From a virus: DNA of 27,205 nucleotides. The notes beneath the pieces are model-generated. The model was not told the origin of the DNA. It was given only the letters and a program-made list of their open reading frames with translations, and ran no database searches. The stretch lies in the IMG/VR virus record IMGVR_UViG_3300046792_000105, positions 1-27,205 of that record. One strand, given 5' to 3'. Below, one piece after another: positions 3-21,246 of the stretch. Position numbers and translations under genes: made by a program. The stretch's first letter is position 1; each line of letters starts with the position of its first letter.

Positions 3-86
3 CGCCGCGCCCTCACCCGGGCCGGCGTTAAAGAGTGTCAGCACCGGCCCCTGGTGACCCACCACAGGGGCAGAACGCTGGTGTAA
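3..86 (+). CDS. Possible 3' end of the gene upstream of the capsid gene (partial)
   Basis: One plus-strand frame is open from the window edge to a TAA at 84-86 and encodes about 27 residues rich in Arg and His. A second frame is open from base 1 to a TGA at 55-57. Both have high GC at third codon positions, so I cannot say which one is the real gene end. In HK97-type phages a portal or prohead protease normally precedes the capsid gene, but neither peptide is long enough to recognise. If the longer frame is right, its stop codon overlaps the -10-like box at 84-89. Confidence 0.25.
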   Translation, partial: RRALTRAGVKECQHRPLVTHHRGRTLV

Positions 87-89
87 GAT
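84..89 (+). promoter_or_regulatory. Putative -10 box (TAAGAT) of the capsid-gene leader
   Basis: TAAGAT fits the actinobacterial TANNNT -10 pattern and lies 6 nt before the first helix of the conserved leader. The same hexamer occurs at the equivalent place (19947-19952) before the second leader copy. No convincing -35 box is visible here: a GTGACC at 54-59 is 24 nt away, which is too far. Supported mainly by its recurrence. Confidence 0.4.
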
Positions 90-95
90 CGCCAT

Positions 96-204
96 CAGGA
101 CGGAGTAGGCCATCCCGTCCTGGATAGGCCGCAGGGCCGGGGTAATTCCCCCGCCTCCTGGCTGGAGCCCGCCGGGGATCACCATCCCTACGGGCTTCAG
201 GAGG
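96..204 (+). ncRNA. Conserved structured 5' leader, copy A (upstream of the major capsid gene)
   Basis: This leader recurs upstream of the major tail gene at 19959-20048. Visible structure: helix P1 CAGGACGG (96-103) with CCGTCCTG (115-122), loop AGTAGGCCATC; a conserved AGGCCGCAG (126-134) whose GGCC could pair with the GGCC in the P1 loop; helix P2 CGGGG (138-142) with CCCCG (149-153); helix P3 CCTCCTG (154-160) with CAGGAGG (198-204). The P3 interval starts with GCTGGAGCCCGCC (161-173), identical in copy B, and contains further complementary arms AGCCCG (166-171)/CGGGCT (191-196) and GGGAT (175-179)/ATCCC (184-188). The P3 3' arm is the Shine-Dalgarno sequence of the capsid gene, so the fold would block initiation. 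The role as a translational regulator is inferred. The family is not one I can name. Confidence 0.7.
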
Positions 205-209
205 AGCCG

Positions 210-6560: not shown

Positions 6561-7247
6561 GTGCCGGTGGAAGCCGCCGAACTGACCATGGTCTGCCCGT
6601 CCCGTGGCCGGCCCGGAAATATTGCGGAACTGGCCATCTGCTGGGAGCAGACCGACGCGAAGGCGCGGCTGCTGGTCCTGGTCGATGACGACGACCCGGA
6701 ACTGGACGGCTACCTATCCCAGCATCTCGATGCCGGGATACAGGTGATCGAGGAGCCCCGCCGACTCGGGCCGATCCTCAACTCGGTCATGCCGGCCATC
6801 GCCCAGCACGGCGGAGCGGTCGGGTTCCTGGGCGACGATCACCGGCCACGCACGCCCGGCTGGGACAAGGCCCTGGTGGATGCGCTGCCCGGCGTCGCCT
6901 ACGGCAACGACCTGTTCCAGGGGCGCAACCTGCCGACCGCCGTGGCGATGTCGGCGGGGATTGTGCAGGCGCTGGGATATTTCGTGCCGCCCGGGCTGAT
7001 GCACCTGTATTTCGATGATTTCTGGCTGACCCTCGGGCGCGAACTGGATTCCCTCACCTACCTGGAGGATGTGATCATTGAGCACATGCACCCAGTGGCG
7101 GGCAAGGCCAGCTGGGACGAGGGATATGTGCGGGTGAACTCGGTGCAGCAGTTCAACACCGACTCCGCCACCTACCAGCGATTCATGACCACCCAGTGGC
7201 CCGGCGACCTAGCCCGGCTGCGGGAAGCAGCGTGGCGCGGTGAGTGA
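6561..7247 (+). CDS. GT-A fold glycosyltransferase
   Basis: A 228-residue putative glycosyltransferase. LTMVCPSRGRPGNIAEL (8-24) is the first strand and nucleotide-binding loop, VDDDDPELDGY (41-51) lies on the second, and VGFLGDDHRPRTPGWD (87-102) carries the DXD-type metal site. HLYFDDFWLTLG is near the acceptor region. Start choice is uncertain: GTG 6561, GTG 6567 and ATG 6588 are in frame and none has a Shine-Dalgarno sequence. TAACCT at 6555-6560 makes a leaderless GTG 6567 attractive. First gene of a seven-gene plus-strand run with overlapping ends; it overlaps the next gene by 8 bp. Donor and acceptor unknown. Confidence 0.75.
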   Translation: MPVEAAELTMVCPSRGRPGNIAELAICWEQTDAKARLLVLVDDDDPELDGYLSQHLDAGIQVIEEPRRLGPILNSVMPAIAQHGGAVGFLGDDHRPRTPGWDKALVDALPGVAYGNDLFQGRNLPTAVAMSAGIVQALGYFVPPGLMHLYFDDFWLTLGRELDSLTYLEDVIIEHMHPVAGKASWDEGYVRVNSVQQFNTDSATYQRFMTTQWPGDLARLREAAWRGE

Positions 7248-7866
7248 GTGGAAGCTGTTCGAGGGGCCGGCCCCATACTTCTCCTCCCCGGAATTCTTCG
7301 CGGCCCACCCCTGGGTGCCGCCGGCAAACCAGGCTGGCCACGCGCAGCGGCAGGCAATGGTCGGCGAGATGGTCAGCTTCGTGCTCACGCAACAGGCTGA
7401 CATCAAGTCGCTGACTGACCTCGGCTGCGGCGACGGCAGCCTCCTGCACCTCCTGCGCGGCCTGCCAGTGGAGGCGTGGGGCTACGACCTGGGTGAGGGC
7501 AACCTGAAGCGTGCCGCCGAACTGGGGCTTGACGTGCGCCGGGCGGATATTTTCAGCGGGCTGGAGTACGGTGACCTGCTCATCGCCTCTGAAGTCGTGG
7601 AGCATCTGGCGGAGCCCGAGAAGTTCCTGCGGGGCCTGCCTGACTGCAAAGCACTGATCCTGTCGTCCCCGTCAGCGGAAACCGGTGAATGGCACTATGA
7701 GCATCACGCATGGGCGTGGGATATGCCCGGCTACGCCGACCTAGTGGAACGCTGCGGCTGGCGGGTGCTGGAGCACCGCGAATGTGACGGCGGGGTCAAC
7801 TGGCACGGTGGCGTGACGCGCCAGCAGCGGTTCCAGGCCATCCACGCGGACCGGGCACCACAGTGA
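7240..7866 (+). CDS. Class I SAM-dependent methyltransferase (first of three)
   Basis: A 208-residue Rossmann-fold methyltransferase. Motif I is LTDLGCGDGS (58-67), the acidic end of strand 2 is GYDLGEGN (81-88), and SEVVEHLAEPEKFL (117-130) is the motif typical of Methyltransf_11/23-type small-molecule or sugar methyltransferases. GTG start at 7240 overlaps the upstream stop by 8 bp. Its SEVVEHL segment is matched by SETAEHL in the next gene, so the two are probably tandem paralogues. Methylation of a sugar hydroxyl or amino group on the glycan is likely from context, but the target is not shown by sequence. Confidence 0.82.
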   Translation: MSEWKLFEGPAPYFSSPEFFAAHPWVPPANQAGHAQRQAMVGEMVSFVLTQQADIKSLTDLGCGDGSLLHLLRGLPVEAWGYDLGEGNLKRAAELGLDVRRADIFSGLEYGDLLIASEVVEHLAEPEKFLRGLPDCKALILSSPSAETGEWHYEHHAWAWDMPGYADLVERCGWRVLEHRECDGGVNWHGGVTRQQRFQAIHADRAPQ

Positions 7867-8399
7867 GGGTGCGGCTACGGCCAGCGTGGAGCCGCGATCA
7901 GCTGATGGCGTTCTGCCCCCGTCCTCACGACCACACGCACTGGCCTGACCACATCGTCAGGGTGGACGACACGATCCAGCTGGCCCGGGACATGGGCGTC
8001 CCCTCCGTGGTCGCCGACCTGGCGTGTGGTGACGCGGCGATCGGGCGGGCGCTCGCCCCGGACCGGCTGATCCTCGGCGATTTCGCGTCCGGCTATGAGA
8101 TCACCGGGATGATCGAGGACACCATTGACATGATCGGGCACGTCGGCATGTTCATCTGCTCGGAGACGGCCGAGCATCTGGACGATCCCGACGCGATGAT
8201 GGTGAAGATCCGGGAGAAAGCCGACTCGCTGGTGTTCTCCACCCCGCTCGCGGAGTTCACCGACATTAACCCGCAGCATTACTGGGGCTGGGATCATGAC
8301 GGGGTGCGGGAAATGCTGGAAGCTGCCGGCTGGGTGCCGGAAATTCAGCGGGACGTGCTGCACCCGCTCGCCCACTTCCAGCTGTGGGGGTGCCGGTGA
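7863..8399 (+). CDS. Class I SAM-dependent methyltransferase (second of three)
   Basis: A 178-residue methyltransferase, shorter than usual. Motif I is ADLACGDAAI (51-60), where Ala replaces the usual first Gly, and SETAEHLDDPDAMM (100-113) matches the corresponding segment of the preceding protein. HWPDH and NPQHYWGWDHDGV add His/Trp-rich segments similar in place to the HAWAWDMPGY of its neighbour. GTG at 7863 overlaps the upstream TGA (GTGA). It probably arose by duplication of the preceding gene and may act on a different position of the same sugar. Confidence 0.78.
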   Translation: MRVRLRPAWSRDQLMAFCPRPHDHTHWPDHIVRVDDTIQLARDMGVPSVVADLACGDAAIGRALAPDRLILGDFASGYEITGMIEDTIDMIGHVGMFICSETAEHLDDPDAMMVKIREKADSLVFSTPLAEFTDINPQHYWGWDHDGVREMLEAAGWVPEIQRDVLHPLAHFQLWGCR

Positions 8400-9145
8400 A
8401 CTTCAGCTCACACAATGTTCTGCTGCCAGATGGGACGCAGACTCTCCTGGGCCAGCCGCTGGTAGCAGTGTCCGGCATATGCCAGATGACATTGCGTGCC
8501 CTGGAACTGGAGTTCGGCCCCGGCCCGCGTTCTGGTATCAGTGTGGCGGACCTGGGCTGCCTGGAAGGCGGGTATACCGCCGAGTTCGCCCGCGCCGGGT
8601 ATGACGCATACGGCATCGAGGCCCGGCAGGAAAACTACGACAATGCGGTATGGCTGAAGGATGCGCTCGGGCTTGAGAATCTGGGCTTTTTTCAGGGTGA
8701 TGTCCGTACGCTACTGCTGGGTACGGAGTTCGACGCCGTGTTCTGCTCTGGCCTGCTCTATCACCTCGACGCCCCGGTCGCGTTCCTGAACCTGCTGGGC
8801 AAGGTCACCCGCCGCATGCTGATCCTGCACACGCACTACTCGATGGAGAACGGCCACCCGGAAGACGCCCACCTGCCCTCCGCTAGCTGGTGTGATCCCG
8901 TCCAGTCGCAGCACGAGGGGCGCACCGGGCACTGGTATCACGAAGCGGCTGGCCGGTGGGAAAGCTACGGCAACACTAAATCGTTCTGGCTATGCAAAGA
9001 CGACCTGCTGCTCAGCCTCCACGAGGCTGGGTTCACGGAGGTGTCCGAAGTGCCTGACTGGCGCGGGCCACTAGGTACCCAGACGGTCCAGGGGTCAGGC
9101 GGTGCCTACCCCGACCATGGCATGTTCGTGGCGGTCAAACCATGA
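8396..9145 (+). CDS. Class I SAM-dependent methyltransferase (third of three)
   Basis: A 249-residue methyltransferase of a different subtype from its two neighbours. Motif I is ADLGCLEGGY (51-60), followed by YGIEARQENYDNA, where Glu binds the SAM ribose, and FCSGLLYHLDAPVAFLNLL, the post-motif II segment. The LHTHYS strand and a long C-terminal insert suggest a specific acceptor. I prefer GTG 8396, which overlaps the previous stop as GTGA and has GGGGG 5 nt upstream; in-frame GTGs at 8384 and 8390 are alternatives. The stop overlaps the epimerase ATG (ATGA). Glycan methylation is inferred from neighbours. Confidence 0.8.
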   Translation: MNFSSHNVLLPDGTQTLLGQPLVAVSGICQMTLRALELEFGPGPRSGISVADLGCLEGGYTAEFARAGYDAYGIEARQENYDNAVWLKDALGLENLGFFQGDVRTLLLGTEFDAVFCSGLLYHLDAPVAFLNLLGKVTRRMLILHTHYSMENGHPEDAHLPSASWCDPVQSQHEGRTGHWYHEAAGRWESYGNTKSFWLCKDDLLLSLHEAGFTEVSEVPDWRGPLGTQTVQGSGGAYPDHGMFVAVKP

Positions 9146-10089
9146 AGGCGCTGATCACCGGCCACTGTGGTTTCATCGGCTGGCATTTCAGGACCAGACT
9201 GGAAGCTGACGGCTGGGAGGTGGACGGCTGTGACATCGCTGCCACCAAGCCCCGTGATGCCCGCGACCTGTTCCGGCGTGATACCGGCCATTATGACCTG
9301 GTGGTGCATTGCGCTGCCGTCGTTGGTGGCCGGCAGGTGATCGAGCACACGCCACTCGACCAGGCGGTCAACCTCGAACTTGACGCGGCCCTGTTCCAGT
9401 GGGCGCTGCGCACCCGTCCCGGCCGGGTGATCTACTTCTCCTCCTCCGCCGCCTATCCGGAGCGTATCCAGCGCAGCGGCCGGATACGGCTCAGCGAGGA
9501 CATGATCGACCTGGATGCCCCCGCCTTGCCGGATGAGCTGTATGGCTGGGTGAAGCTGACGGGCGAGCGGCTGGCCCGGCTCGCCCGGCGCGAAGGGCTC
9601 CCGGTGACGGTGGTGCGCCCGTTCTCGGGCTATGGCGAAGACCAGGACACCGACTACCCGTTCGGTGCGTTCACTGACCGTGCCCGCCGCCATGAAGACC
9701 CGTTCACCATCTGGGGCGACGGGCAGCAGGCCCGCGACTTCGTCCACGTCGATGACGTGGTGAGCGCCACCCTGGCCGTGGCGGAAGCAGACATCGAGGA
9801 GCCCGTTAACATCGGCTGGGGTGAGCCGGTGACGATGAAGGAACTTGCACAGCGGTTCACTAAGGCGGCCGGCTACACGCCGGGATTTAAACTGAAGACA
9901 GGTGCGCCGGCTGGGGTCGGTTACCGCGTCGCTGACCCGGGCCGGATGCGGAAGTTTTACCAGCCGCGTGTCACCCTCGATGAGGGCATACGCCGCGCCC
10001 TGGGAGAATTATGGACCCGCTGGTCTCGGTCATCAGCCCGACCTGGCAGCGGCACGAGTGGCTGTTCGATCGCTGCATCGCCTCGGTGA
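9142..10089 (+). CDS. NAD-dependent nucleotide-sugar epimerase/dehydratase (extended SDR)
   Basis: A 315-residue extended short-chain dehydrogenase. TGHCGFIG (6-13) is the glycine-rich NAD-binding motif, YFSSSAAYP (98-106) supplies the catalytic Ser, YGWVK (134-138) is the Tyr-xxx-Lys pair, and VVRPFSGYG plus ARDFVHVDDV are typical of NDP-sugar epimerases of the WcaG/GalE type. It would epimerise or dehydrate an NDP-sugar for the adjacent transferases. Starts ATGA-coupled to the upstream gene. Normal family end is near residue 290; the last 25 residues (from WTRWS) are basic, unlike the family, and lie out of frame over the first 79 bp of the next gene. This suggests a lost stop codon. Confidence 0.85.
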   Translation: MKALITGHCGFIGWHFRTRLEADGWEVDGCDIAATKPRDARDLFRRDTGHYDLVVHCAAVVGGRQVIEHTPLDQAVNLELDAALFQWALRTRPGRVIYFSSSAAYPERIQRSGRIRLSEDMIDLDAPALPDELYGWVKLTGERLARLARREGLPVTVVRPFSGYGEDQDTDYPFGAFTDRARRHEDPFTIWGDGQQARDFVHVDDVVSATLAVAEADIEEPVNIGWGEPVTMKELAQRFTKAAGYTPGFKLKTGAPAGVGYRVADPGRMRKFYQPRVTLDEGIRRALGELWTRWSRSSARPGSGTSGCSIAASPR

Positions 10090-10631
10090 AGGCGCAGGAG
10101 TACCGCAACATCGAGCATGTGATCGTCTCCGATGGTCCCGACCCGGAGCTGGCCGGACTGATCGCCCAGATGGAGATGCCGGAAAACTATTCGCTGATCT
10201 TCGAGCAGATGTCCCCCAACCCGGACCCCCGGTGGGGGACGCGCGCCCGGCTCCGTGGCCTGGAACTGGCCACGGCTAACCTGATCGCCTACCTCGATGA
10301 CGACGATTCCTACCGGCCGGACCATTGCGCCCAGCTGGTGCGGGCACTGGAACGCCATCCCGAGGCAGGGTTCGCCTACACCCAGATGGCCAGCCACGGC
10401 GGCGTCATCGAGAAAGAGGCCATGGCTATCATCGGCTCGGGCGACCTCGGCCCGTGCTCTATCGGCACGCCCATGATCATGCACCGCCGGGAGCTGCTGG
10501 AAATCTCCACCTGGGGACCGCCCGACTCGATGGAAGACTGGAGGCTGGTGAACCGGTGGATGGAACGGGGCGTCAAGGCCGAGTTCATTCCGTGGGTGAC
10601 AGTGGACGTGTGGCCCAGTGCTTACCGCTGA
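10011..10631 (+). CDS. Family 2 glycosyltransferase
   Basis: A 206-residue GT2 enzyme. VSVISPTWQRHEWLFDRCIASVKAQ (5-29) is the standard opening, HVIVSDGPDPEL follows, and LIAYLDDDDSYRPDH (91-105) carries the DXD metal site. MEDWRLVNRWMERG near 176-189 is in the place of the GT2 ED catalytic base region. No transmembrane segments, so it is a cytoplasmic transferase. It begins within the unusual C-terminal extension of the epimerase (79-bp overlap); ATG 10011 follows GGGAGA about 6 nt upstream. Overlaps the next gene by 14 bp. Confidence 0.85.
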   Translation: MDPLVSVISPTWQRHEWLFDRCIASVKAQEYRNIEHVIVSDGPDPELAGLIAQMEMPENYSLIFEQMSPNPDPRWGTRARLRGLELATANLIAYLDDDDSYRPDHCAQLVRALERHPEAGFAYTQMASHGGVIEKEAMAIIGSGDLGPCSIGTPMIMHRRELLEISTWGPPDSMEDWRLVNRWMERGVKAEFIPWVTVDVWPSAYR

Positions 10632-11649
10632 GCCCCTGTCGGTGTGGGGTATACATGACGCCCAGGCCGAGGGCAACCCGATGCCGACCGGCTGCGGCTA
10701 CTTCCGCATCAAGCTGCCGCTGGAGCAGCTCGGTGCGCACGGGTGGAAGGTGCACGCCCAGGCATTCACCCCACCCGCTGAGGTGGCGAACTACCGGCTG
10801 ATCGTGGGCGAGCGGCTGGACCGTCCTCAGGTGCTCGGGGCCTGGCGACGGCTGCGGCAGAATCACCGCCTCGCCTACGAGATAGACGACAACATATGGA
10901 ACGTCGATGTGACGAACTTCAGCGCCTACAGCGTGTTCACCCGTTACTCGGTCATCGACGCGGTTGAAAGCTCAATCACCGCCTCCGACCTGGTGACCGT
11001 GACCACCGAGCCGCTGGCTGAGGCGGTCCGTGAACATACCAATCATCCCAACGTGAAGGTGATCGGGAACTATCTGCCCGCCTCGGTGCTGACCCTCGAA
11101 CGCAAACGCCGCGATCATGTGACGATCGGCTACGCCGGCGGGTCGAGTCACGCCATGGACGTCTCGATGGTTGCCACGACGGTGCGCAAGGTGCTCGACC
11201 GTGATCCCAGCCTGCGGCTGCACATCGTGGGCGTGGACTACCGGCCCACCTTCGGCCACAACCACGCCTACCACACCCGATGGGTGGATGACCCGGCTGA
11301 GTATTGCCTGAGCATGGGCGAGAACCTGGATTTCGACATCGGGCTCGCGCCGCTCGCGGCCACCCGGTTCAACGAGTCGAAGAGCCACCTGAAGGCGCTC
11401 GAATACGCGGCGATGGGCATCCCCGTCGTCGCCTCCGACTTCGGCCCCTACCCGGGGTTCGTGGTGGACGGCGTCACCGGGTTCCTGGTGCGCAGCAAAA
11501 GCGAATGGCGGGACCGTATCCGTGAGCTGGTGGCTGATGCTGACCTGCGTGAGAGCATGGGGGCCAAAGCCCGCGAGCTGGCTGCCCAGCATACGATCGA
11601 GGGCAACTGGGATAAGTGGGCCGCCGCCTACCAGGAGGTATTGCAGTGA
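10618..11649 (+). CDS. Family 4 glycosyltransferase (GT-B fold)
   Basis: A 343-residue GT-B enzyme. VTIGYAGGSSHAMDV in the middle is the start of the C-terminal Rossmann domain, and SHLKALEYAAMGIPVVASDFGPYPGFVVDGVTGFLV carries the GT4 E-x7-E type donor-binding motif. The N-terminal half (CGYFRIKLPLEQLGAHGW, AYEIDDNIW) fits the acceptor domain. The start is uncertain: GTG 10618 overlaps the previous gene by 14 bp, and GTG 10639 is also in frame. Last enzyme of the plus-strand glycan run, with its stop overlapping the next GTG as GTGA. Specificity unknown. Confidence 0.85.
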   Translation: MLTAEPLSVWGIHDAQAEGNPMPTGCGYFRIKLPLEQLGAHGWKVHAQAFTPPAEVANYRLIVGERLDRPQVLGAWRRLRQNHRLAYEIDDNIWNVDVTNFSAYSVFTRYSVIDAVESSITASDLVTVTTEPLAEAVREHTNHPNVKVIGNYLPASVLTLERKRRDHVTIGYAGGSSHAMDVSMVATTVRKVLDRDPSLRLHIVGVDYRPTFGHNHAYHTRWVDDPAEYCLSMGENLDFDIGLAPLAATRFNESKSHLKALEYAAMGIPVVASDFGPYPGFVVDGVTGFLVRSKSEWRDRIRELVADADLRESMGAKARELAAQHTIEGNWDKWAAAYQEVLQ

Positions 11650-11921
11650 AGGTGAAGCTGATCCAGCAGATGAGCGGCCCCCGCTACGACGGCCGGGACT
11701 GGCCAGACTTTGGTGTCGAGTTCGAGGTGCCCGACGCCGAAGGCCGGGATCTGTGTGCCGGCGGAATCGCGGTGCCGGTGGTGGAGGAGCGCAAGGTGGA
11801 AATCGCCGCGCCGCCGCCTGACCCCACCGTGGAGGTGCGGGCCGAGCCCGAGCCGCCTGTGGAGGAGCCAATCCGGCGTGGCCCAGGCCGGCCTCCGGGC
11901 AGCCTCAACAAGCCGAAGTGA
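11646..11921 (+). CDS. Small protein with C-terminal AT-hook-like motif
   Basis: A 91-residue protein. Residues 1-45 (KVKLIQQMSGPRYDGRDWPDFGVEFEVPDAEG) look like a small beta domain, a Pro/Glu-rich linker follows, and the end is RRGPGRPPGSLNKPK, where the GRPPG core is an AT-hook-like minor-groove-binding element. GTG at 11646 overlaps the upstream stop (GTGA). Such small acidic-to-basic proteins are seen near head genes in actinobacterial phages, but no function is known to me. DNA binding is inferred from the short motif only. Confidence 0.65.
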   Translation: MKVKLIQQMSGPRYDGRDWPDFGVEFEVPDAEGRDLCAGGIAVPVVEERKVEIAAPPPDPTVEVRAEPEPPVEEPIRRGPGRPPGSLNKPK

Positions 11922-11999
11922 GTGCGGGCCACACTGGACCCGATGCGTTAAGCTGATCAGCGAAGGGCCGCGCCCATCGAGTTCAGTGGAGCCTGAACC
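11922..11999 (+). promoter_or_regulatory. Intergenic leader: TAAGCT box and hairpin presenting the Shine-Dalgarno
   Basis: TAAGCT (11949-11954) is a -10-like hexamer similar to the TAAGAT boxes of the two conserved leaders. Just before ATG 12000, GTTCAG (11981-11986) pairs perfectly with CTGAAC (11993-11998), leaving TGGAGC in the loop. The GGAG in this loop is the best Shine-Dalgarno candidate, about 8 nt from the ATG. No -35 is obvious. Confidence 0.4.
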
Positions 12000-12515
12000 A
12001 TGGCACTTGCGCGGGCCTACAAGGTTGGTGTCTTCGACACCTCGACGCCCCTCGCCACGGGCGCGACCGATACGGTGACGACCCCCATCCCGATTCTGTA
12101 CGGGGTGACGACCTCGACGGCGGACTGCTACATCTCCTGCGTCCGGGGCAGCGTCCTGGGTGCGGCAACGTTCCCGGCGAACGCTTCGGTGACGCTGTCG
12201 CTGAACATCAACACGGGCTCGCAGGCCGGCGGGCAGACGGCGCTGGCCCGGCAGCTCACGGGCAACGCGCTCGCCTCCAACATCTTGTGGAAGACGGCGG
12301 GCGGCACCACGGCGGCGGCGATCACCGGCCTGACGATGACCACCGAACTGTGGGCGCAGAACATCCCATTCACGGCGGGCAGCAACTGGGGCGAGTGGTT
12401 CACGCCGGGGTTCGAGATCCCGATCCCGATCTCCACCCAGTTCGCGCTGTTCGTCACCGCGACCTCGGCTGGTACTGGCACCACGTTCCACGGCGAAGTC
12501 GAATACACCGAGTAA
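12000..12515 (+). CDS. Beta-rich putative phage structural protein
   Basis: A 171-residue protein of unknown family. It is Thr/Ala/Gly-rich with regularly alternating hydrophobic strands (SVTLSLNIN, FALFVTATSA, FHGEVEYTE) and no charged helices, as in jelly-roll or fibre-type virion proteins. The final VEYTE strand is like the end of many phage head-fibre or decoration proteins. Two similar-looking proteins are adjacent (this one and the gene from 12519). The assignment as structural rests on composition and position among virion genes. Confidence 0.65.
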   Translation: MALARAYKVGVFDTSTPLATGATDTVTTPIPILYGVTTSTADCYISCVRGSVLGAATFPANASVTLSLNINTGSQAGGQTALARQLTGNALASNILWKTAGGTTAAAITGLTMTTELWAQNIPFTAGSNWGEWFTPGFEIPIPISTQFALFVTATSAGTGTTFHGEVEYTE

Positions 12516-12518
12516 TCC

Positions 12519-13136
12519 GTGTCTTTCCTGACTGGCACCCAGGCCGAGCTGCTATATTCAATGCCCGCGTCGGGCTCGGCGGTCACCGCTGCCGTGATAA
12601 CGGTGATGTCGGGCAGCACGGCGGCGAACCCGGCGTACGCTCTGCCCGCGAACTATTTCAGCGTGCAGAGCGGTACGACGCCGGGGAAAGCGCTGCTGCT
12701 GAAGGGCGGCGGGTCGTGGGCTACCGCTACCGCCGCGCGTACCACCGCCTTCACGGTGGGCCTGGACACCACCGCCGGCACGCTGGGAATCACTCTCGCC
12801 AAAACAGGCACGCTGACTACCGTTGTCCAGGCCACTGCCGCCGCGTTCGACTTCGAGGTACTGGTCACGATGACCGCGCAGGGCGTCGGCGCGACGGCGG
12901 GCACCCTCAATGCGGTCGGCTGGGTGGAATACGGTGTCGCCAACAATGCCGCCACAGGCACGTTCGGTACCTACAGCAGCAACAACGCATCACGGTTCAT
13001 GATCGGCACCCCGCAGACGGCGGTCACGTTCAACACGCTGACCTCGTATTACCTGGAAGTGTTCAACACGTGGGACGCGACCACGAACGCGCCGACGACC
13101 ACCCTTACAAACTTTTACGTCTTCGGCCTACTCTGA
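12519..13136 (+). CDS. Beta-rich putative phage structural protein
   Basis: A 205-residue Thr/Ala/Gly-rich protein, almost free of Lys and Arg and probably all-beta. FDFEVLVTMTAQGVGATAGTLNAVGWVEYG and TNFYVFGLL are strand-like, and the pattern is common in phage appendage proteins with a jelly-roll fold. GTG at 12519 is 3 nt after the preceding stop, with no clear Shine-Dalgarno, so it is probably translated by reinitiation. Its many Thr/Ser side chains make it a possible glycan acceptor, but that is speculation. No enzyme motif. Confidence 0.65.
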   Translation: MSFLTGTQAELLYSMPASGSAVTAAVITVMSGSTAANPAYALPANYFSVQSGTTPGKALLLKGGGSWATATAARTTAFTVGLDTTAGTLGITLAKTGTLTTVVQATAAAFDFEVLVTMTAQGVGATAGTLNAVGWVEYGVANNAATGTFGTYSSNNASRFMIGTPQTAVTFNTLTSYYLEVFNTWDATTNAPTTTLTNFYVFGLL

Positions 13137-16699: not shown

Positions 16700-16987
16700 A
16701 TGGCTGAATTGTGGCGCGAGCAAGACGGGCTGACCCTGCACAGCCACTGGGACGCAGGCGGCGAATACTGGCTGGAGATCGTCCACGCCGAGCCCCGCGC
16801 CCTGTTCGGTGGCGAACTGCTCCGCATGGCACGCCGGGGCGAGACGATGTCCTGCCTCGAAGTGTCCACTGGCCCGGTTGGCGTCGGCAGCGTCGTCACC
16901 ATCCGCGCCCACGACCGGAACGCGGTCTACCGGCTCACCGAATACGACCGGCAGCACGATATTTATGCAGGTGAGTGGCCGGACTAA
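16700..16987 (+). CDS. Small hypothetical phage protein
   Basis: A 95-residue protein with mixed alpha/beta character, rich in Trp, Glu and Arg. GEYWLEIVHAEPRALFGGELLRMARRGE and GSVVTIRAHDRNAVYRLTEYD are the clearest segments, and the protein ends in EWPD. I recognise no family. It follows the repeat protein by 6 nt and probably starts from a leaderless transcript (TAGGAT at 16686-16691). Position between the appendage gene and the connector makes it a candidate small virion or assembly protein. Confidence 0.6.
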   Translation: MAELWREQDGLTLHSHWDAGGEYWLEIVHAEPRALFGGELLRMARRGETMSCLEVSTGPVGVGSVVTIRAHDRNAVYRLTEYDRQHDIYAGEWPD

Positions 16988-17030
16988 ACTGGCCACAGGT
17001 AGGCCGCGCTGACCCGAGGGTGGCTGCCGC
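16988..17030 (+). other. Short intergenic leader before the connector gene
   Basis: TAAACT (16984-16989) could be a -10 box. It is followed by GTAGGCCGC (16999-17007), which shares the GTAGGCC of the two conserved leaders, but P1, P2 and P3 cannot be drawn. I see it as a weak, possibly chance, resemblance. Confidence 0.25.
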
Positions 17031-17978
17031 ATGGGCGCGACCGTGTTCTTCCAGAACCAGGCTGGCAACGACATCGCCACCCTGGGGATGACCTTCCAGG
17101 TCAATAACGTCAACGCTGATCCCACCGCCGTCACGTGTGTCATCACTGACCCGACTGGCGCGGCCACCACGCACACGGTTGGCGCAGGCCCCTCGCCTGC
17201 CGACATCACCAAGCTGTCCACTGGCGTCTACCAGCTGCTCATCGGCTCCACGATCGTCGGCATGTGGTCATTCCAGTGGACCGGCACCGGCACCGCGTCA
17301 GAGCTGGACGCAGGCACCTGGACGGTCAACCCGGCAGGCACGATCCACCAGTTCTACACCAGCGTGGAGGAGCTGAAGTCCCGGCTGAACATCACCGACA
17401 CGGTCAGCGACTTCGAGCTGGAGCTGGCCGTGCAGGCGGCGGCGAGGTCGGTTGAGAGCTACTGCGGCCGGTTCTTCTACCAGGTGGCCGAGACCCGCAC
17501 CTACATGCCGTATGACATCTGGAGCCTGCCCGTCGATGATCTCGTTTCGGTCACGTCGATGGCCACCGACCAGGACGGCGACGGTGTGTTCGAGCAGTCA
17601 TGGGTGCTGGGCACCGACTTCGAGCTGGCGTTCGGGATGTGGGAGTTCAACCAGAACGTCACTGGCGAGGCCCGTCCCTACACCCAGATCCGGGCGATCA
17701 ACGCGGCCGGCGGCGGGAAGTTCTTCCCCTACACCTGGCCGTTCAGCCGGCTCGACCGCATCCAGATCATTGGCGTGTGGGGCTGGCCCACGGTGCCATA
17801 CCGGGTGAAGCAGGCCACCCTCCAGGTCGCCAGCGAGCTGTTCAAGCTGAAGGACTCACCGTTCGGCCTGGCCGGCACGTCGGAGTTCGGCATGGTGCGG
17901 CTGCCACGGGGCGGCAACCCTTATGTGGCGAGCCTGCTCTGCGACTACGCTAGCCCGATGCACAAGGTCGGGATCTGA
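17031..17978 (+). CDS. Head-tail connector (gp6-like) with N-terminal Ig-like domain
   Basis: A 315-residue protein. Residues 1 to about 103 form a beta-sandwich (VFFQNQAGNDIATLGMTF, VTCVITDPTGA, STGVYQLLIGST, WTGTGTASELDAGTWTVNPAG), like the Ig-type domains fused to phage adaptor proteins. From about 105, QFYTSVEELKSRLNITDTVSDFELELAVQAAARSVESYCGRFF is the helical hallmark of gp6-like head-tail connectors, which sit under the portal ring. The C terminus (VKQATLQVASELFKLKDSPFG) also fits the family. ATG at 17031 is preceded by a weak GAGGG. The stop overlaps the next ATG (TGATG). Role is well supported by pattern, though the family normally lacks so large an N-terminal domain. Confidence 0.78.
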   Translation: MGATVFFQNQAGNDIATLGMTFQVNNVNADPTAVTCVITDPTGAATTHTVGAGPSPADITKLSTGVYQLLIGSTIVGMWSFQWTGTGTASELDAGTWTVNPAGTIHQFYTSVEELKSRLNITDTVSDFELELAVQAAARSVESYCGRFFYQVAETRTYMPYDIWSLPVDDLVSVTSMATDQDGDGVFEQSWVLGTDFELAFGMWEFNQNVTGEARPYTQIRAINAAGGGKFFPYTWPFSRLDRIQIIGVWGWPTVPYRVKQATLQVASELFKLKDSPFGLAGTSEFGMVRLPRGGNPYVASLLCDYASPMHKVGI

Positions 17979-18388: not shown

Positions 18389-18618
18389 CGCTGCCCGAGA
18401 TCACCGAGATCCAGCGGTGGCAGGTTAAGCCGGGTGACCGGCTGCTCGCCTACGTGAACCGGGATGAGGTCAGCCAGGAAGAGGCCCGGATGATTGTGGA
18501 CCGGCTGCGGGCTACGCTCAAGCTGCCCGACCTGCCTATCGTGATCGTGACCAGAGAATGGGATTTCGCCGTCATGGGGGTACCCAGCGGCAAGGACGCA
18601 GCCAGAGGAGAATCGTGA
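18385..18618 (+). CDS. Small hypothetical protein
   Basis: A 77-residue protein. IQRWQVKPGDRLLAYVNRDEVSQEEARMIVDRLRATLKLPDLPIVIVTREWDFAVM forms a beta-alpha-beta pattern found in many small actinobacterial phage proteins of unknown function: a VKPGDRLL strand, a helix and a second strand. ATG 18385 overlaps the upstream stop (ATGA); longer frames further upstream are not supported. The stop overlaps the glycosyltransferase GTG (GTGA). Confidence 0.65.
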   Translation: MTLPEITEIQRWQVKPGDRLLAYVNRDEVSQEEARMIVDRLRATLKLPDLPIVIVTREWDFAVMGVPSGKDAARGES

Positions 18619-19685
18619 AGATCCCCAAGCGGGTGCTTATAGTGCACCCCGGGCCGCAGTTTTCCGTCCACGATGTTTTCGCCGGCTGGCAGGAAGCCTT
18701 CATCGAGGCTGGGATCGCCTGCCGGGACTACAACCTTGAGGACCGGATCGCATTCCACGATTCGGCCTACCTCTACACCGGCAAGCACGACGATCAGGGC
18801 AACCCCCAGTTCAAGAAAGCATTCCACGACAAGGCGATGGTTATCGGGGTGTCGGCGAACGGGATCTACGCCACCTGTTTCCAGTGGTGGCCCGACGTGG
18901 TGATCATCGTCTCGGCGTTCTTCATCCCCACTGAGTTCATGGACGTGCTCCGCTCACGCGGTATCAAGGTGGTGCTCCTGTTCACCGAGTCGCCGTATGA
19001 GGAGAAGCGGCAGCTGGAGCGTGCCCGCCACGCTGACCTGGTGCTGCTGAACGACCCACTGCTGATCGGCATGTATGACGAGGAGGGCATTCCCGCCCTC
19101 TACATGCCGCATGCTTACCGGCCTGGGCTGCACTACCCAGGTCCGGGCGAGGACCAGTTCATGACCGACTTCGTCTTCATCGGCACCATGTTCGCCTCCC
19201 GGCAGGAGTTCTTCGGCAAGATGCTGGCGCTCGGGGCGTTCGAGGGGCTCGACACCACGTTCGGCGGCAACTGGGCGACGGTGAAAGAAACCGACCCGCT
19301 GATGAAGCTGCTGTCGCATGAGCGGAAAGAATGCGTGGATAACGCGCTCACCACCCGGATCTACAAGTCCGCCAAGGTGGGGCTCAACATGTTCCGGCGC
19401 GAAAACGACGACGACACCACCGAAGGCTGGTCGGCCAGTCCCCGCGAGATCGAGATGGCCGCGTGCGGGCTGTTTTTCCTGCGCGAGTCCCGGCCCGAGT
19501 CGGACGAGCTGTTCCCCATGCTGCCCACCTACGCCAGCCCGGAGGACGCGGCCGAGCAGCTGCGCTGGTGGCTGGACCATGACGCGGCGCGGGGGATCGC
19601 GGCTATCCAGGCGCGGGCAGCTATCCGCCCCCGTACCTTCGCCGCCAATGTCCAGAAGCTACTTGGTGCGCTGGACGAGCTGTGA
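18615..19685 (+). CDS. CgeB-like GT-B glycosyltransferase in the tail module
   Basis: A 356-residue protein resembling the CgeB/YkvP-type glycosyltransferase group. RVLIVHPGPQFSVHDVFAGW is the first Rossmann strand and loop, DVVIIVSAFFIPTEFMDVLRSRGIKVVLLFTESP is a central strand, DFVFIGTMFASRQEFFGKML begins the second Rossmann domain, and WSASPREIEMAACGLFFLRESRPESDELF is the C-terminal donor-binding segment, where the family reads like REFEAAACG. GTG 18615 has AGAGGAG 4 nt upstream and overlaps the previous stop as GTGA. A long upstream extension is possible but unlikely. It is 7 kb from the other glycosyltransferases, between the tail terminator and major tail genes, so its acceptor may be a tail protein. 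Confidence 0.78.
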   Translation: MKIPKRVLIVHPGPQFSVHDVFAGWQEAFIEAGIACRDYNLEDRIAFHDSAYLYTGKHDDQGNPQFKKAFHDKAMVIGVSANGIYATCFQWWPDVVIIVSAFFIPTEFMDVLRSRGIKVVLLFTESPYEEKRQLERARHADLVLLNDPLLIGMYDEEGIPALYMPHAYRPGLHYPGPGEDQFMTDFVFIGTMFASRQEFFGKMLALGAFEGLDTTFGGNWATVKETDPLMKLLSHERKECVDNALTTRIYKSAKVGLNMFRRENDDDTTEGWSASPREIEMAACGLFFLRESRPESDELFPMLPTYASPEDAAEQLRWWLDHDAARGIAAIQARAAIRPRTFAANVQKLLGALDEL

Positions 19686-19928: not shown

Positions 19929-19952
19929 CTTCCCGATTCTTCCCGCTAAGAT
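19925..19952 (+). promoter_or_regulatory. Putative promoter of the major tail gene (GTGACT-N16-TAAGAT)
   Basis: GTGACT (19925-19930) resembles a TTGACT-type -35 and is 16 nt before TAAGAT (19947-19952), a TANNNT -10. The transcript would begin close to helix P1 of the conserved leader (19959). The hexamer TAAGAT also precedes the first leader copy (84-89), which strengthens the case. Confidence 0.5.
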
Positions 19953-19958
19953 AGGGGC

Positions 19959-20048
19959 GACGGAGTAGGCCATCCCCGTCAGGCCGCAGCCGAGGGGAAT
20001 CCCGGTATCCGGCTGGAGCCCGCCATAGAACCCCACGGATACAGGGGA
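19959..20048 (+). ncRNA. Conserved structured 5' leader, copy B (upstream of the major tail gene)
   Basis: Shares with copy A (96-204) the P1 helix GACGG (19959-19963)/CCGTC (19976-19980) with the loop AGTAGGCCATC, then AGGCCGCAG (19981-19989), a P2-like stem GGGG AAT CCC region (19994-20003), and GCTGGAGCCCGCC (20012-20024). Helix P3 is GTATCCG (20005-20011) with CGGATAC (20036-20042): the same position as in copy A but different sequence, still 7 of 7 paired. Here P3 ends just before the Shine-Dalgarno AGGGGA (20043-20048). CCCC (20031-20034) in the P3 loop is complementary to the GGGG of that Shine-Dalgarno, so an H-type pseudoknot could hide it. A regulatory role is inferred. Confidence 0.7.
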
Positions 20049-20053
20049 ACACT

Positions 20054-20473
20054 GTGGCCAGGCTTCATGGAAAGAGCGGCTTCGTCTACATGGCGATCCC
20101 CTCGGGCGGAACGGCCAGCCCGATCGCGTTCCTGACCAACTGGAACATCAACTTCACCGTGGACCAGCCCGAGGTCACGGCGTTCGGTGACGCCAACAAG
20201 ATCTACGTGTCCGGGCTGCCTGACGCATCCGGTGACTTCACCGGGTTCTTCGATGACGCGAGCCGGCAGATCTACACCGCCGCCCGTGACGGTATCGCCA
20301 GGTCGTTCTATCTGTACCCGAACACTGTCGCGGACCCGAACATGTACTGGTTTGGGAACATTTTGCCCGATTTTCAGATTTCGGGTGGAATTTCCGAAGC
20401 GATCTCGATCAAGGCCAACTGGAAGGCCTCGACCGCGATCATCAAATATGCTCCCGTGGAAGGCTTCGGCTGA
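20054..20473 (+). CDS. Major tail protein candidate
   Basis: A 139-residue protein that is probably the tail tube subunit. It starts MARLHGKSGFVYM, which is short and strand-like, then has FLTNWNINFTVDQPEVTAFGD, a segment typical of small tail tube proteins, followed by DFTGFFDDASRQIYTAARD, a conserved helix-containing loop, and ends in KANWKASTAIIKYAPVEGFG. The GTG start has AGGGGA (20043-20048) 5 nt upstream. It lies between the tail terminator and the chaperone/tape measure region, as expected. Its own promoter and long structured leader fit a gene needed in high amounts. Short length compared with many tail tube proteins is the main reservation. Confidence 0.72.
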   Translation: MARLHGKSGFVYMAIPSGGTASPIAFLTNWNINFTVDQPEVTAFGDANKIYVSGLPDASGDFTGFFDDASRQIYTAARDGIARSFYLYPNTVADPNMYWFGNILPDFQISGGISEAISIKANWKASTAIIKYAPVEGFG

Positions 20474-20496
20474 CCGGGCCTGCCTGCTACGCTGCC

Positions 20497-20515
20497 CCCA
20501 GCTAATCCTGGGAGG
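20497..20515 (+). promoter_or_regulatory. Hairpin partly covering a Shine-Dalgarno
   Basis: CCCAG (20497-20501) pairs with CTGGG (20508-20512) around a 6-nt loop. The GGG at the 3' side is part of the GGGAGG (20510-20515) that serves ATG 20521. A TACGCT at 20488-20493 could be a -10 box. The hairpin could reduce translation of the lysin-like gene relative to the major tail gene. Confidence 0.35.
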
Positions 20516-20520
20516 CCGCG

Positions 20521-21246
20521 ATGTCCGTCACTGTCGTTCACGACGCCATCCATGCCAACGTGTCACACCTGCCGCCAGGGATGGCGGCCGGCTATACGAC
20601 CGGCTCGCCGGACATCAAGTGGACTGCGGCCGACTGGCACGCCCACCCAGGTGCGGTGCGGATCGACCAGGACGCGGGTGCCGTGGACGCGACCGCCGAC
20701 GTGCTCGACGTGGAACGCGGCGCGGCCACCAACGGCGAGTCGGCCGGCTGGTACCGCCGGGCGCTGGCCAGCTTCAACGCGGCCACCCGGCCGGGGCAGC
20801 GTCACCCGGCTATCTACACCAGCGCGAGCAATGTGACGCCGCTGGTGAACGCGCTGATCGCTGGCGGGGTCACGTCGGGGCCTGGCCTGTGGGTAGCGAA
20901 CTGGAACCTGTCGGACGCCTCGGCGGTTGCCCTGGTGGTGGCTGCGTCAGGGCCGTACCCGGTGATGGGCGTCCAGTTCGCGTCCGGCCAGTTCTATGAC
21001 ACGAACGTGTTCTCGGGCACCTGGCTGGCCACCGTGTCAGGCGCTGCCCCGCCGCCTGCTGACCCCGGTCCGTTCCGCAAGGAATTCACCGGGCTCAACA
21101 GCTGGGCCTCGGTGGCGAACGCCCGGGGCACGACGGCGGCTCAGCTGATGGGGCTGTCGGCCGCCTCCTACACCGACGCCGATAAGGCGAAGCTCGCGGC
21201 GCTGCGGCCACGGCGCGGCACCCCGTATTACACCAAGAACCGGTGA
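20521..21246 (+). CDS. Lysin-like protein: glycosidase-like domain and LysM-like C terminus
   Basis: A 241-residue protein. Residues 1 to about 170 resemble GH25/DUF1906-type TIM barrels: VVHDAIHANVSHLP at the first strand, AVRIDQDAG, ADVLDVERGAA with candidate acidic residues, HPAIYTSASNVTPLV, GLWVANW and GVQFASGQFYDTNVF. A Pro-rich linker (about 175-185) precedes a LysM-like segment, NSWASVANARGTTAAQLMGLSAAS. The first domain recalls that of the signal-peptide protein at 13154. ATG 20521 has GGGAGG 5 nt upstream. It has no signal peptide, so it may be a virion-associated or late lysin, but catalytic identity needs comparison with known structures. The stop overlaps the next GTG (GTGA). Confidence 0.7.
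   Translation: MSVTVVHDAIHANVSHLPPGMAAGYTTGSPDIKWTAADWHAHPGAVRIDQDAGAVDATADVLDVERGAATNGESAGWYRRALASFNAATRPGQRHPAIYTSASNVTPLVNALIAGGVTSGPGLWVANWNLSDASAVALVVAASGPYPVMGVQFASGQFYDTNVFSGTWLATVSGAAPPPADPGPFRKEFTGLNSWASVANARGTTAAQLMGLSAASYTDADKAKLAALRPRRGTPYYTKNR

Follow-up and report, generated by a model that had tools for sequence, protein, structure and literature searches.

The nut sites of phage lambda (boxA and boxB) set a linear box beside a conserved-loop hairpin near the starts of operons, where they act on early genes with the N protein. In phage T7, the structured leader of gene 10, which encodes the major capsid protein, affects the expression of that single gene. The coat-protein operators of the ssRNA phages MS2 and PP7 are hairpins whose loops are conserved and whose stems are free, and the operator overlaps the start codon. 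The put RNA of phage HK022 is approximately 70 nt long, contains two stem-loops and occurs as two similar copies, putL and putR, at two promoters of the phage, with putL located just downstream of its own (PMC9378689). It acts in early operons, where it binds E. coli RNA polymerase without a protein factor and suppresses pausing and termination via the zinc-binding domain of the β′ subunit. In Cluster K mycobacteriophages, the SAS/ESAS elements carry the 13-bp GGGATAGGAGCCC at the RBS of non-structural genes, with little support for RNA hairpins (PMC3203893). The control of capsid and tail protein dosage in tailed phages of high-GC Gram-positive hosts is poorly known.

The window analyzed here, the entire 27,205-nucleotide stretch of IMG/VR virus record IMGVR_UViG_3300046792_000105, carries one and the same three-hairpin RNA element twice, at 98–176 and 19959–20024. 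The full element is about 75–80 nt long, and the gap from its 3′ end to the start codon is about 32–45 nt. The features of the two copies and their downstream genes are as follows.

84–89, + strand: TAAGAT −10-like box of the capsid copy; predicted transcript start at about 96–98
98–120, + strand: P1 hairpin of the capsid copy, GGACGG [AGUAGGCCAUC] CCGUCC
126–134, + strand: unpaired box AGGCCGCAG of the capsid copy
135–155, + strand: P2 hairpin of the capsid copy, of variable sequence, GGC-C-GGGG [UAAUU] CCCC-C-GCC
157–176, + strand: P3 hairpin of the capsid copy, CCUGGC [UGGAGCCC] GCCGGG
191–204, + strand: CGGGCUUCAGGAGG, pre-SD and SD, complementary to CUGGAGCCCG (162–171) as an alternative to P3
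210–1523, + strand: major capsid protein gene, HK97 type (PF05065, E = 1.8e-52; phrog_10)
19947–19952, + strand: TAAGAT −10-like box of the tail copy
19959–19980, + strand: P1 hairpin of the tail copy, GACGG ... CCGUC
19981–19989, + strand: box AGGCCGCAG of the tail copy
19990–20004, + strand: P2 region of the tail copy (CCGAGGGGAAUCCCG)
20010–20024, + strand: P3 of the tail copy, a short stem, CGGC[UGGAGCCC]GCC
20054–20473, + strand: probable major tail protein gene (phrog_10528, E = 1.7e-10)

An initial annotation of the window had proposed that the two leaders share sequence blocks in the same order, each after a TAAGAT box, and this was confirmed at 84–89 and 19947–19952. The 17-mer ACGGAGTAGGCCATCCC is exact at 100–116 and 19960–19976 and has no other window site at up to three mismatches (0.17 matches expected in shuffles at that threshold), and the order ACGGAGTAGGCCATCCC, AGGCCGCAG, GGCTGGAGCCCGCC is identical in both copies. 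The third hairpin is present with the TGGAGCCC block as its loop, and in the tail copy it closes with only about three standard pairs. The same annotation described a common G-rich/AAT/C-rich P2 stem; the hairpin exists, but its sequence likeness is not the conserved feature, as P2 is free to vary in both sequence and length. Across copies, the P1 loop UAGGCCA and the P3 loop UGGAGCCC are near-invariant, P3 has the consensus CCUGGC[UGGAGCCC]GCCRGG, and GGCCG of the AGGCCGCAG box is invariant in 15/15 copies of the first alignment. The GGCC in the P1 loop and linker, both invariant segments, could possibly form a pseudoknot or a dimer. GGCUGGA and GGCCGCA bear what we take to be a weak resemblance to 16S h45, which would amount to mimicry.

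The three-hairpin leader is an undescribed RNA family. Rfam 15 gave nothing at the gathering threshold in the window or in 14 related loci, and its best sub-threshold matches were chance-like miRNA/6C models, in agreement with the annotation, which recognized no matching named family. Searches of INPHARED revealed no match to the element by blastn or to the tail protein by tblastn. A capsid-protein scan of 84,980 genomes found no relative, and an element pattern scan of 84,980 genomes returned three matches, all without P1/P3, below 16 bits and chance-like. No description of a three-hairpin leader was found in the open-access literature.

The nearest described system is HK022 put, which the window element resembles in size, promoter-proximal position and the presence of two similar copies. 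However, put has two stem-loops in early operons, whereas the window family combines three hairpins with a linear box and belongs to late operons in another phage group. The two have no known shared sequence, the window element being known from sequence comparison. The likeness to lambda nut lies in a box and a conserved-loop hairpin near the operon start, but no boxA-like sequence was recognized in the window element. Unlike the window family, the T7 gene 10 leader is not known to have an element shared between head and tail. The MS2/PP7 operators have the same combination of conserved loops and free stems, but the window element lies at least 30 nt upstream of the start codon. SAS/ESAS are comparable in that one actinophage carries copies of a leader element ahead of several of its genes (PMC3203893); identity with them was rejected because sequence, position and gene class all differ and the pairs of the window family covary.

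Relatives of the window were gathered by exact and gapped pattern scans of IMG/VR and by scans that used the capsid and tail proteins as guides. The contigs are fragments, identical ones were merged by sequence only, and most are near-identical; counts rest on 17 distinct full-length elements read upstream of homologues. A covariance model search, as the initial annotation had suggested, separated family members clearly from other sequences. The model (R1) was built from ten copies with the window tail copy left out, and it detected this copy at 45.2 bits (E = 1.1e-6 over 547 kb), which places it in the three-hairpin family and substantiates the claim that the element is duplicated within one genome. 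Over the 547 kb, held-out copies scored 42–71 bits and the next candidates 17 bits, with none between, while the best score on 531 kb of unrelated loci, picked for sharing short patterns, was 23.8 bits. The 17-mer alone is not diagnostic because four of its 31 exact matches in IMG/VR (L005, L008, L021, L023) lack the other blocks and have no model score.

RNAalifold applied to the first MAFFT alignment recovered P1 and P3 unprompted. Among the 17 distinct copies, both sides changed in 5/6 pairs of P1, with 95% of cells paired, and both sides vary in 5/6 modelled pairs of P2 (82–87% of cells paired); P3 is nearly invariant in sequence, with 97% of cells paired. The whole alignment has standard pairs in 92% of pair cells and double-sided change in 11 of 18 pairs, counts that lean towards structure because the alignment was fitted to the model. 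Compensation in P1 is visible by eye, as in GGACGG/CCGUCC, AGAGCGG/CCGCUCU, GACGGCG/CGCCGUC, and GGAGCG/CGCUCC. The covariation score was 0.312; shuffles gave 0.148 ± 0.017, slid controls reached no more than 0.113, and all covariation measures exceeded all 500 shuffles and all slid controls. The annotated structured leader of cis-acting type is thus borne out by covariation in 17 copies and by held-out detection. Compensatory changes in P1 and P2, together with near-invariant loops, indicate a function at the RNA level, which argues that the leader would act as RNA and not as a DNA operator. This covariation also makes compensatory-mutation tests straightforward.

A DNA-level element, serving a phage transcription factor as operator or as downstream promoter element, could explain the near-fixed distance to the −10 box and the retention of AGGCCGC near +1 in the reduced forms described below. 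What is seen, however, stems that change in sequence yet remain complementary around fixed loops, is the opposite of a dimeric DNA site, and we consider a DNA-level element very improbable. It is scarcely credible that the copies reflect a functionless recent duplication or chance similarity: carriers are confined to one contig clade, as this would predict, but the pairs covary, the copies have diverged to 42–45 bits with the structure kept, and the downstream genes differ.

Full copies were located before the capsid gene in the window, L001, L013, L019, L065, L066, L083, L104, L108, L158 and L179, and before the tail gene in the window, L020/L084 and L178. They also precede a third late gene, of MSFYTGTQ type in L068/L073/L077 and of MAAIDNAQ type in L083; its product gave a low-confidence all-beta model, for which the PDB yielded no confident match. 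A contig of 27.9 kb (G007) holds three copies, lying before the capsid gene (5829), the third gene (16648) and the tail gene (26986), while G001 (55 kb) and G002 hold two each and G012 (108.7 kb) holds one. The initial assignment as leader of the major capsid and major tail genes stands for both genes, the latter as probable, but the element is not confined to them, given the third-gene copies and the AGGCCGC reduced leaders at two or more further late promoters of the window. This distribution over capsid, tail and two different third genes indicates that the element tracks promoters and not one gene.

Among matches with a listed identity, full copies accompany capsid proteins at least approximately 76% identical to that of the window. 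Relatives at 63–72% capsid identity have other leaders at the capsid gene, which shows that the three-hairpin element is not indispensable, and in some relatives the full element is absent at the tail gene; both points count against the reading favored below. We take the carriers to be one clade of uncultivated soil siphophages, actinophage-like in their GC content, their SD and their partial matches to Streptomyces phages.

Inspection of 18 elements showed a TANNN(T/C) box ending 6–9 nt upstream of P1 in all 18, and in the window each copy starts 6–8 nt past its TAAGAT box. A consensus −35 was looked for and not found. The position of the −10-like box places the predicted transcript start at P1 or within about 2 nt of it, and each copy should therefore occupy the 5′ end of its transcript. 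These putative promoters and start sites would also suit a 5′-end mRNA stabilizer, in which the +1 hairpin shields abundant late mRNAs from 5′-dependent decay, and the downstream genes do encode abundant proteins. We regard this as improbable, since a generic stabilizer has no need of conserved loops, the linear AGGCCGC box, or hairpins 2 and 3, yet these are the most conserved parts.

Two reduced leaders, both conserved in related contigs, were identified at other positions in the window, each with a TAARCT box, 9–10 nt, AGGCCGC and a start codon within about 50 nt.

11949–11998, + strand: reduced leader of TAAGCT, 9 nt, AGGGCCGC (11964–11971) and hairpin GUUCA[GUGGAGCC]UGAAC, preceding the ORF at 12000–12515
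16985–17007, + strand: reduced leader of TAAACT, 10 nt and AGGCCGC, preceding the head-tail adaptor gene at 17031–17978

Dinucleotide shuffles gave an expectation of 0.11 such leaders on the window + strand, and the one at 16985–17007 is kept in the related contigs L086 and L088. Counting two full and two reduced leaders, at least four putative late promoters of the window share AGGCCGC past the predicted start; thus, the box of the full element recurs in the reduced form. Several relatives have only a −10 box, 7–8 nt, AGGCCGC and a short hairpin at the tail gene. A further segment of the window, at 20488–20520, contains TACGCT, a CCCAG/CUGGG hairpin and AGGCCGC abutting the ATG at 20521, and is possibly another leader variant. 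The window ORFs at 12000–12515 and 12519–13136 had no family matches; the product of the latter, with a low-confidence all-beta model and weak lectin-like matches only, is perhaps a head decoration or fibre protein.

In most capsid-gene leaders, CUGGAGCCCG of P3 is complementary to CGGGCUUCAG beside the SD, and a P3-to-pre-SD helix, with differing 3′ partners, is present in the MFE fold of most leaders of the capsid and third genes. The z-scores of this duplex range from −1.0 to −3.5 in the capsid-gene leaders. Such pairing potential in many capsid-gene leaders would suit translational control, against a nut/put-like reading. In a translational operator or enhancer, the ribosome or a phage or virion protein would read the leader, and P3 would switch with the CUGGAGCCCG/CGGGCUUCAG helix reaching the SD, thereby setting the translation of abundant virion proteins. 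Several observations make this rather unlikely. The SD opening energy was not raised relative to 70 control genes (median 4.0 versus 5.1 kcal/mol, p = 0.81). Because this comparison showed no loss of SD accessibility, an SD-sequestering operator or switch was rejected as the main reading and survives only as a rival. The tail leaders have little of the long helix, random RBS segments used as controls often pair with P3 about as well, and the 5′ side of the helix is invariant, so that no true covariation stands behind it.

Our leading reading, held tentatively and as a close call, is that the element is a promoter-proximal, cis-acting leader of late mRNAs that a trans factor reads in a nut/put-like manner. 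Each late promoter would place the three-hairpin RNA at the very start of the transcript, where the invariant loops and box would be recognized by a trans partner, either the RNA polymerase or an RNA-binding protein of the phage that works together with it. Elongation or expression could thereby rise across the long operons for head and tail, which would then be co-ordinated through their common leader; both the partner and the co-ordinate control are inferential. We lean towards a nut/put-like function because the element goes with promoters and not with particular genes, leaves 32–45 nt between itself and the start codon, and does not reduce SD accessibility. A predicted 5′-end position combined with that gap fits a nascent-transcript tag or a stabilizer better than a start-codon operator, and our preference for transcription over translation is accordingly one of anatomy only, as we would judge it. 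Intrinsic terminators as antitermination targets were rejected, as they are no commoner in the window than in shuffles; this leaves no visible obstacle for an antiterminator, with Rho-dependent ends as possible ones. A compact RNA tag common to head and tail operons is a testable handle on the dosage of capsid and tail protein and a possible expression tool.

In more distant capsid homologues (47–66% identity), two or three hairpins stand in tandem within the leader of the capsid gene, about 50–200 nt upstream of it (L118, L122, L125, L126, L129, L131, L134, L136, L137, L139, L141, L146, L148, L154–L157, L160). Their outer stems are free and reach up to 9 bp, the core is YA-NNN-CGNNA-N′N′N′-A, and the inner helix covaries. 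The outer stem was used in picking, and its pairing is therefore biased; the third inner pair, which the first pick did not demand, covaries all the same. A model of these hairpins (R2) found 2–3 copies per contig in nearly all positives, in the capsid leader, on contigs of up to 62 kb, and matches outside the capsid leader only at chance-like scores. The family is not in Rfam, and its hairpin looks like a protein-binding RNA operator. Confinement of these operator-like hairpins to the capsid gene is what capsid-specific control predicts and favors the translational alternative.

RNA control at capsid leaders may be general in this phage lineage, with differing RNA modules. An unrelated second hairpin family at the same location suggests either an arms race between RNA and protein or control at the capsid leader that was invented more than once. 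It is conceivable, though we lean against it, that capsid leaders, with the three-hairpin element in the window and the tandem hairpins in its relatives, are fast-diversifying RNA recognition sites for cognate phage factors, and that one such site was duplicated into the tail operon and further late operons, building a late-gene RNA regulon; if so, this would possibly be the first RNA system of nut/put type that acts on late genes in actinophages. That the window P1 loop UAGGCCA is a reduced form of UAGGCCGACAGCCA is speculation. Upstream of the capsid gene in L112, L113, L115, L116, L117, L124 and L159, at a capsid identity of about 60–72%, lies a third leader type, in which the first hairpin has an AGCCC-like loop and CCUCCUGC...GGCCGAGG forms the second.

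Between the capsid and tail genes, the window encodes glycosyltransferases and a nucleotide-sugar epimerase (about 6561–11650 and 18558–19685), possibly a virion glycosylation cassette.
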